This document shows positions 17,836 through 41,196 of a stretch of DNA of 64,000 bases, piece by piece. Each line of letters opens with the position of its first letter. Within the stretch, counting starts at the first letter, position 1. The notes under the pieces are model-generated. The model had not been told where the DNA came from, ran no database searches, and saw only the letters and a program-made list of their open reading frames with translations. Both the position numbers and the translations under genes were made by a program. Source of the DNA: Zoogloea dura. Its GTDB lineage: Bacteria > Pseudomonadota > Gammaproteobacteria > Burkholderiales > Rhodocyclaceae. The stretch covers positions 1 to 64,000 of the forward strand of contig NZ_JABBGA010000005.1 in NCBI RefSeq assembly GCF_012927165.1. Direction: 5' to 3'.

Positions 17836-17940
17836 GACGGGTGAGCGCGGTTGCTGTTGCCGGCACACGTGCCGGCGGTACTGCTGTCGAGCCTGGGACT
17901 GCGGGCCTTGCACCCGGTGGTCTTGCAGCGCTCCTCGAAG
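17836..17940 (-). ncRNA. SAH riboswitch
   Basis: The leader of ahcY holds, on the minus strand, CGAGGAGCGCTGCAAGACC, then CCAGGCTCGACAGC, a variable hairpin (GCCGGCACGTGTGCCGGC), and CAACCGCGCTCACCCGT. These are the conserved segments and order of the S-adenosylhomocysteine riboswitch: GAGGAGCGCUGC pairs with GCGCUCACC, and AGGCUCG pairs back to CGAG. SAH binding turns on expression of genes that remove SAH, which fits ahcY directly downstream. The remaining leader from 17835 to the start codon holds the expression platform. Confidence 0.92.
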
Positions 17941-17950
17941 CAGGGTGGGG

Positions 17951-40214: not shown

Positions 40215-40233
40215 GGGGGGAGTGCCTTTACTG

Positions 40234-40837
40234 GGCGGCTTTCCTTTCTTTTACGTTGGATTGGCCGGGATTTCGCCCCGGCGGGCGACCCCTTTCTTTG
40301 CGTCGCCAAAGAAAGGGGGAAAGAAAGGCGACCCGGCTTCCCCGGTCGTCCGCTACGCGGACGACTCCCCTGCGCTGCTCGCATCGGGCGGCCGGCGCGG
40401 AACTCGTCGGCTGCGCCTCCTCAGACAGCCGCGCCGGAAAGCCCCGCCCGCTGCTGCGCTGCTCGGCGGGTCAGAACGGGCTTTTCGCAAACACCGCGCG
40501 TTGGCTGAAGCCGAGGTTGGCTTCCAGCGAGAAAAGCAAAACCCCGCGCCTCGCATCCGCCGGATTTTCCGCAGAGGCTCGGTGCTTGGAAAAAGCCCGT
40601 TCCGACCCGCCGAGCAGCGGAACGGCAGGCGGGGAAGTCCGGCGCGGCTGTCTGAGCCCGCAGGGCGAGTTCCGCGCCGGCCGCCTGCCGTGAGCAGCGC
40701 AGGGGAGTCATTCGCGCAGCGAATGACCGGCGAGGCGGGTCGCCTTCTTTGCCTCCTTTCTTGGCGAAGCAAGAAAGGAGGTCGCCCGCCGGGGCGAATT
40801 CCCGGCCAATCCAAGGCGGAACAACGGAAAGCCTCCC
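40234..40837. repeat. 600-bp imperfect inverted repeat with nested covarying hairpins
   Basis: The left arm (40234 to about 40495) and right arm (about 40575-40837) are imperfect reverse complements over some 260 bases, sharing for instance TTGGATTGGCCGGGA, GCCCCGGCGGGCGACC and GGCCGGCGCGGAACTCG. Within each arm are two local hairpins. Left: CCCCTTTCTTT/AAAGAAAGGGG (40289-40318) and GTCGTCCGC/GCGGACGAC (40345-40365). Right: CCTCCTTTCTTG/CAAGAAAGGAGG (40752-40781) and GTCATTCGC/GCGAATGAC (40707-40727). The arms differ in sequence at these hairpins but pairing is kept on both sides. Frames through the element are by-products; I see no real gene. Confidence 0.85.
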
Positions 40838-40844
40838 TTGCCAC

Positions 40845-41196
40845 CCTCCAAGGCCAACAAGTTCCCTTCAGAGGCCAACAAGTTCCCCCCGCAACCCAGT
40901 GAGCTGGGCCCTGACTTGAACTTGTTCCCCTCCGAGCCCAGCGTGTCTGGCCCCGGAGGGGAACCCACTGCCTTCGGAGGGAAACAAGTTCAAATCCAAG
41001 CCCAGCAAGTTCAGCTCCGAGGGAAGCCCACTGCCCCCGGAGGGAAACAAGTTCAAGTCCAAGCCCAGCAAGTTCAGCTCCGAGGGAAGCTCACTTCCCC
41101 CGGAGGGAAACACGTTCAAATCCGAGCCCGACAAGTTCAGCTCCGAGGGAAACTCACTCCCCCCGGAGGGAAACACGTTCAAGTCCGAGCCCAGCA
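40845..41196. repeat. 63-bp tandem repeat (minisatellite), about 3.5 units plus degenerate copies
   Basis: Units start at 40978, 41041, 41104 and 41167 (the last partial), each exactly 63 bases and 85-95% alike, beginning AGGGAAACAAGTTCAA. The units themselves contain two related pieces with AAGTTCA. From 40845 to 40977 degenerate copies and partly inverted pieces occur. Because 63 is a multiple of three, both strands have open frames through the array (plus-strand repeats of GGKQVQIQAQQVQLRGK type; minus-strand repeats of LPSELNLLGLDLN type). Neither resembles a known protein and neither has a good ribosome binding site, so I do not call a gene. Confidence 0.85.

Follow-up and report, generated by a model that had tools for sequence, protein, structure and literature searches.

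REP sequences are dispersed intergenic palindromes found near gene 3' ends, and REP elements protect mRNA 3' ends. MITEs are noncoding, multicopy sequences with inverted ends. Telomerase RNA and SAM-II form major-groove triple-helix H-type pseudoknots. According to the available portions of the papers on them, the guanidine-III and SAM-V riboswitches also form triple-helix H-type pseudoknots. The candidate RNA TwoAYGGAY (RF01731, clan CL00106) was presented in a 2010 paper, to go by its accessible part, as a probable RNA that is probably not cis-regulatory. A later account, of which an excerpt was available (PMC4333381, December 2014), describes two tandem GAs in one stem and proposes CsrA binding, and two other papers, in their accessible parts, give just refinements of the consensus structure. 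The accessible portions of the TwoAYGGAY literature yielded no account of a second pseudoknot or of a paired arrangement, and a search of articles, supplements and preprints aside, found no paper describing outward pairs or a triplex domain.

The element described here lies in a 64-kb window (the whole stretch of DNA analyzed, 64,000 nucleotides) from the genome of Zoogloea dura (5.83 Mb, 83 contigs). Like REP/BIME sequences, it occurs as numerous dispersed palindromes between genes, close to gene 3' ends, but it is far longer, is pseudoknotted, shows no GTAG head, and does not require a Y1 transposase, and a separate GTAG-headed REP-like family occurs beside it or instead of it. Like MITEs, it is noncoding, multicopy, and has inverted ends, but these ends are predicted to be complex RNA modules that occur throughout a class; a target duplication was not seen, and no parent transposase was found in the Z. 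dura genome when PF01797 and PF12686 were searched. As in triple-helix H-type pseudoknots, a pyrimidine loop strand runs along the purine strand of a stem, but here the pseudoknot lies in a multicopy repeat in which the C.G-C position shifts in step with the stem. Neither a ligand site nor a fixed association with coding genes is known to us for the element. It matched no Rfam family, either in the window at the gathering score or in five Zoogloea loci.

We consider this to be probably a dispersed nonautonomous element that carries one structured RNA twice, the two copies facing outward. The initial annotation of this DNA had observed stem pairing. To this are added here the pseudoknots, the overlap with TwoAYGGAY, the pairing of modules that face outward, and the mirror (triplex) rule.

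Organization of the Element

The element is an imperfect palindrome of ~620 bp that starts 7 bases after the yejK stop (Table 1). As judged by eye, the outer repeats extend to about 40222 and 40845. A repeat search found three arm blocks, 40233-40325/40745-40837 (81% complementary), 40333-40406/40666-40739 (84%), and 40420-40509/40567-40656 (82%), which bears out the imperfect inverted repeat of the initial annotation. Two hairpins per arm had been said to change in step, and both pairs were confirmed in position: the H1 hairpins are perfect (40289-40300/40307-40318 and 40752-40763/40770-40781), and the H2 hairpins were read directly at 40345-40353/40357-40365 in the left arm and 40707-40715/40719-40727 in the right. 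No recombinase gene was seen inside the element, again as annotated, and ORFs traverse it on both strands.

A 63-bp tandem array (3.8 copies, 40959-41196) adjoins the element. Motifs resembling this array, noted by eye, fill the center of the element in L117 and adjoin the element in L040. Elsewhere in the window, a SAH riboswitch at 17836-17942 (-) scores above the Rfam gathering score.

Table 1. Features of the element in window coordinates; module parts belong to the right module unless marked left
Feature	Position	Strand	Evidence
Whole element, two inverted putative RNA modules flanking a short variable center	40222..40845	.	Arms, genome copies, alignment
Left module	40257..40460	- (RNA sense)	Alignment row L001:1528-1731:-
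Right module	40610..40813	+ (RNA sense)	Alignment row L001:1881-2084:+
Center between innermost arm blocks, differs among copies	40510..40566	.	Repeat search, copy alignment
Outer stem A, 40623-40630 with 40683-40690	40623..40690	+	Covariation helix 1
Stem H3, 40639-40647 with 40672-40680	40639..40680	+	Covariation helix 2
Hairpin H2, GTCATTCGC/GCGAATGAC	40707..40727	+	Covariation helix 3
Pseudoknot 1, S2 5' strand TCGC, partner 40764-40767	40740..40743	+	Class-level loop-tail test
Third strand TTCTTT, parallel to AAGAAA 40771-40776, predicted triple helix	40745..40750	+	Triplex-rule tests
Stem S1, 40752-40763 with 40770-40781	40752..40781	+	Repeat search, S1 scan, covariation helix 5
Pseudoknot 2, TCGC 40782-40785 with GCGA 40794-40797, loop GCCGGG 40788-40793 with CCCGGC 40801-40806	40782..40806	+	47-genome test, covariation helices 6 and 7
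Left pseudoknot 1, stem 40289-40300/40307-40318, third strand 40320-40326, S2 strand 40327-40332	40289..40332	-	Repeat search, S1 scans
Left H2, GTCGTCCGC/GCGGACGAC	40345..40365	-	Direct reading, covariation
Left pseudoknot 2	40264..40288	-	Direct reading, alignment, covariation

Each arm, read outward, gives one and the same predicted RNA module. In order, the module has an outer stem, a stem whose internal loop contains a tandem GA, a hairpin that varies, an H-type pseudoknot, and then another pseudoknot, and it ends near the element border. Folding of the right half gives -120.1 kcal/mol, compared with an average of -100.2 (sd 4.5) over 200 dinucleotide-shuffled versions, and the same stems emerge unprompted from minimum-energy folding of the right module. 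The internal loop of H3, TGTCTGAG..GCGAGTT, is also present in class loci; its tandem GA was placed by eye at 40654-40655 and 40667-40668. By eye, the tandem-GA stem reads TGTYTGAG..CGAGTT across 58 Zoogloea modules and recurs in the class loci. On the folding and comparative evidence, the proposed module fold is very likely correct.

Covariation and Strand

Alignment A4 holds 58 Zoogloea modules, hand-picked from 112 well-aligned among 151. Under the two-pseudoknot structure, 98.6% of 2716 cells are paired and 15 of 47 pairs have changed on both sides; because the rows are related, these counts are of nonindependent events. When the 3' partners are shuffled, 94.1% of cells are paired and 7.7 pairs are changed on both sides, and slid partners give at most 58.8% and 4 pairs. 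Doubly changed cells number 159, compared with 48.2 (sd 9.1) for shuffled partners and at most 8 for slid ones. Outer stem A has 94.8% of cells paired and both sides changed in 3 of 8 pairs, and H2 has 99.6% paired and both sides changed in 4 of 9. One pair of H2 columns is GC in 35 of the 58 modules and AU in 21, and another is CG in 28 and UA in 27. Within Zoogloea, three of the four S2 pairs are invariant.

The nonstandard pairs, read in the outward orientation, comprise 24 G-T, 3 A-C, and 35 others, 19 of them at one pair; counted by pair column, G-T and A-C stand at 11 versus 3. This excess of G-T over A-C points to RNA. The outward strand folds better in 28 of 29 modules from the Z. dura genome. 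The same test is weak elsewhere (47 of 64 in the class and 39 of 65 in other Zoogloea and the family, with 73 of 133 in a flank control).

The paired changes that the initial annotation saw within one element are not confined to it; they recur in aligned copies from elsewhere in the genome and in other species. Its proposal of selection for hairpins holds up as a structural constraint, seen in the covariation of the stems, of the loop-tail pairing, and of the triplex described below, together with the G-T bias. The covariation, the loop-tail pairing, the triplex rule, and the comparison of G-T with A-C also support its suggestion of a structural RNA. The element likely acts as RNA in the outward orientation, and a function at the RNA level seems quite likely.

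Two Pseudoknots and a Triple-Helix Rule

The 5' strand of S1 is pyrimidine-rich in the scanned halves, a property that was a selection condition in two of the S1 scans and not in the third. In the class halves the S1 loop is complementary to a short upstream tail. In a set of 47 genomes from outside the family, each represented by one half, the loop-tail match averages 4.02 nt, compared with 2.78 when permuted, and none of 2000 permutations reach the observed value; the pairing is absent from the search model, and R1, a covariance model holding only the S1 and P0 pairs, was derived from modules selected for a perfect S1 and partly shares the consensus tail and loop. All 67 class halves together give 3.96 versus 2.81. 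Loop and tail pair, for example, as AATG-CATT, TGTC-GACA, GCACG-CGTGC, and GCGGCC-GGCCGC. The loop of the S1 hairpin pairs outside its own stem, as defines an H-type pseudoknot.

The strand between the tail and S1 mirrors the purine strand of S1 in parallel. A parallel match of this kind is the relation required for U.A-U and C+.G-C triples, and with the loop strand following the purine strand in parallel, the predicted triples are those of a pyrimidine triple helix. For the loop-proximal tract, 106 halves of both sets are parallel, 0 are antiparallel, and 56 are undecided. In the class, 31 of 67 halves (26 genomes) match in parallel only and 0 in antiparallel only; the remainder are 11 matching both ways, 6 matching neither, 12 without a scorable core, and 7 symmetric. 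In Zoogloea and the family, 75 of 95 are parallel and 0 antiparallel, with 7 both and 13 symmetric. The loop-proximal core was defined after a longer first core had left 19 neither and 15 symmetric mismatches in the Zoogloea and family set. That longer core gives 29 class halves and 42 Zoogloea and family halves parallel versus 0 antiparallel, the remainder being 10 both, 8 neither, 12 without a core, and 8 symmetric in the class, and 6 both, 19 neither, and 28 symmetric (15 of these mismatching) in Zoogloea and the family. Tracts are of seven types in the class by the longer core (AAGAAA, AAAGAA, AAAAGAAA, AAAGAAAA, AAGAAAA, AAGGAAA, and AAGAGAAA among parallel halves) and of five types in the Zoogloea and family set by the loop-proximal core. 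Avoidance of mispairing was ruled out as the reason for the mirror spacer: both strands are TTTCTTT in the commonest arm of the Z. dura genome, which is also the left arm in the window.

Pseudoknot 2 lies directly 3' of S1 and covaries, one example being TCGC..GTGGGT..GCGA..ACCCAC. Its mean run across the 47 genomes is 3.87 nt, compared with 0.84 in base shuffles, which rarely retain any stem. The run reaches 5 or 6 pairs in 21 of the 47 genomes, and in 5 there is no stem by the rule used.

Copies, Range, and Arrangement

The search for further copies in this and related genomes found about 40 places with the element in the Z. dura genome (91 HSPs). Scoring took in 40 of 109 candidates, so the number may be higher; contig ends cut three of the places, so that a few could belong to one copy. 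In an alignment of the 33 full-length copies, with 7 broken or cut ones omitted, the copies look mosaic. The element is present in 21 of 23 Zoogloea genomes, Z. dura included. A sample of the family gave matches in 21 of 61 genomes, two of them of the genus and the others weaker and mostly partial. In the class, R1 has matches in 63 of 274 genomes, which represent 55 of 222 genera, again counting Z. dura. In a phylum sample it matches 40 of 299 genomes at E 1e-4, 26 of them within the class; the 14 outside are weak (best E 4e-6) and all fall in a single other family. R2, a whole-module model built from A4 and therefore from Zoogloea only, recovers 48 of the 49 class loci picked by R1, and 60 of its 68 matches span the first to the last model position, some skipping parts.

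Arrangement was scored on 87 halves from 8 genomes, each assembled in one or two contigs. The 25 neighboring halves less than 1.6 kb apart are -/+ in 23, -/- in 1, +/+ in 1, and +/- in 0, which shows that the two putative RNAs of a pair face outward. Modules without a detected partner occur in L203, L205, and L223. Three same-strand module matches within 11 kb in another genome (G330, contig 1, 4628533-4639285) may form an array.

Both halves are found in Variovorax paradoxus, between convergent genes, and, by R1, in Pasteurella multocida, where dapF lies on one side and a DUF484 gene on the other; Iodobacter fluviatilis has one half. Plasmid records with matches number two for the Zoogloea query and three, from P. 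multocida, for the L206 query; the L194 query had no match among them. A phage origin was rejected because phage records gave no match. One exact pattern found one viral contig, which carries one half.

Relation to TwoAYGGAY

RF01731, whose cut-off is 43 bits, scores at or above it in 3 of 49 class loci (L185, L188, and L226) and below it in four others (L192, L203, L205, and L225). All seven matches are on the same strand as the R1 pseudoknot match and on its 5' side, overlapping the pseudoknot domain or lying within about 60 nt 5' of it, and in L185, L188, L192, and L226 they overlap the R2 match. By eye, the tandem-GA stem is common to the Zoogloea modules and TwoAYGGAY. In its 5' part, the predicted module is a relative of the TwoAYGGAY candidate RNA. 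The RF01731 matches differ in stopping before the triplex pseudoknot, a domain outside the RF01731 model; the AYGGAY loops, by eye, are not kept in the 58 Zoogloea modules, and five Zoogloea loci gave no RF01731 match up to E 5.

Gene Context and Turnover

The Z. dura copies lie between convergent genes in 16 cases, tandem genes in 14, and divergent genes in 4 (n=34), as called by a home-made ORF scorer that left 6 of 40 without a called neighbor. The class loci, called by a cruder longest-ORF rule with 10 loci with short flanks and one other dropped, give 14 convergent, 19 tandem, and 5 divergent (n=38). The best reading is that the element favors gene 3' ends.

The initial annotation correctly placed the element next to a YejK-like gene: the product is an NA37/YejK protein (PF04245), and the nearest named Zoogloea yejK relative is 97% identical. 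A link between gene and element did not stand, since among 21 Zoogloea yejK loci the full element is 3' of the gene only in Z. dura. The adjacency is incidental, and the suggested nucleoid site was rejected on this lack of conservation. The yejK site of the sister species holds an 80-bp remnant of the element. In another Zoogloea (L078), the yejK site holds, by eye, apparent element ends joined without the middle.

Six sites could be compared with the sister species (G011). The copy is whole at L027, runs off the contig end at L025, is absent at L015, lies in two parts on separate contigs and is followed by other DNA at L005, and is a remnant at L001 and L002. The element persists, whole or in pieces, at three of the six sites, which argues that movement is not frequent, and the mixed states contradict insertion at every copy. 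The initial annotation's suggestion of a nonautonomous mobile element fits in that the copies are dispersed and sites differ between sister species. No target duplication was seen by eye in the flanks of 40 copies or at one empty site, where the intergenic region differs as a whole.

A GTAG-headed REP-like palindrome occurs at the empty site of the sister species and beside the yejK remnant (L144/L163, L070). Fuzzy matches to this palindrome lie within 150 bp of 20 of 40 Z. dura copies versus 13 of 800 random window stretches, a control drawn from all window DNA and not just intergenic DNA. In two Z. dura copies (L032 and L033) and one from another species (L114), the same other sequence begins at the same point inside pseudoknot 2, as if this were a preferred target. 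ORFs lie between the modules in L192 (ion channel, PF07885), L216, and L218, the last two without a Pfam match. A small intermodule ORF at L183:1838-2122 (+) looks GIY-YIG-like by eye, has no Pfam match, and has relatives in viral contigs.

Alternative Explanations

The element might be purely a mobile one, its terminal RNA modules or single-stranded DNA serving as substrate for a transposase or reverse transcriptase that acts in trans, with no gain to the host. The dispersed copies, the outward ends, the differences between sister-species sites, and the ORFs between modules in L192, L216, and L218 favor this reading. Against it, no target duplication was seen, and neither of the enzymes considered as mobilizers was found in the Z. 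dura genome: RAYT/Y1 transposase (PF01797) has 0 matches there at E 1e-6, which removes RAYT/REP as the mobilizer, and DUF3800 (PF12686) was rejected in the same way. At the same threshold PF01797 is missing in 17 of 63 element genomes, Z. dura counted; its presence in 46 of 63 versus 120 of 211 others, tallied by eye, is a weak association. The reading is plausible though short of probable, and we rate spread by an enzyme acting in trans about equally.

A DNA-level role would have the element act as a cruciform or an intramolecular triplex (H-DNA) in replication, recombination, or nucleoid binding; in a variant, it may fold as single-stranded DNA. H-DNA needs mirror purine/pyrimidine tracts, which are present, as are a long palindrome and symmetric strands. 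This role is nonetheless unlikely, given the wobble excess in one orientation, the two pseudoknots that need a single strand, and the agreement in strand with TwoAYGGAY RNA.

Inverted repeats are classic templates for template switching, and the paired changes could have arisen by such switching in quasi-palindromes and by gene conversion between copies, without structural selection. The copies look mosaic; L022 has a 12-base insert beside S1, and one Z. dura copy has a 22-bp perfect S1 stem with that insert sequence, as a template switch would make. However, template switching yields inverted and not mirror relations, and the decidable halves are mirror by 106 to 0; nor does it predict loop-tail pairing across families or a G-T excess over A-C in one orientation. 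A purely mutational origin is thus very improbable.

We give equally little weight to a CsrA-sponge RNA, as proposed for TwoAYGGAY in the excerpt available (PMC4333381) and in keeping with CsrC in the same clan (CL00106), with AUGGAY loops in L185 (two), L203 (two), and L205 (one), and with other GGA loops in L188 and L226, since such loops are, by eye, missing from the conserved hairpins of Zoogloea and the pseudoknot domain persists.

Proposed Role and Implications

Comparative analysis has shown the predicted fold, its class-wide spread, the outward pairing, the copy number, and the differences between sister-species sites. In the structured-RNA reading that we prefer, a transcript entering from either flanking gene would yield the far module in sense at its 3' side, where the knotted end could stall 3'-5' exonucleases or the polymerase. 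The palindrome would serve both of two convergent genes, each mRNA ending in a triple-helix pseudoknot, and the element would spread or persist since gene 3' ends tolerate it or profit from it. A sequence scan found no sigma-70-like promoter near the element, which fits read-through and does not prove it. The same scan found 6 terminator-like sites against an expectation of 2.4 (sd 1.7); two of the sites form a symmetric pair, one at each border, and point into the element (40273-40288 + and 40797-40782 -). Entering transcripts might stop at these inward border hairpins before reaching the sense module, which somewhat lowered our estimate for 3'-end protection or termination, now a tentative proposal. 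Equally speculative is the fuller picture of a transferable divergent RNA pair with telomerase-like triple-helix pseudoknots as its ends at the element borders, which caps or stabilizes the 3' ends of incoming transcripts and can carry cargo genes between its modules, TwoAYGGAY being its visible 5' part.

If these readings are true, a 3' domain and a role open to testing would be added to an orphan motif known since 2010, and its genomic form would be that of outward pairs making up long palindromes. A single family would then take in many of the long palindromes between genes in beta- and gammaproteobacteria. Base-triple covariation over many families would be a natural record of a triple helix of an unusual kind. 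Stabilization of RNA by triple helices is known in eukaryotes and viruses, and a bacterial triple-helix 3' end would parallel it. There is a real chance that the element might be a new kind of genetic element.
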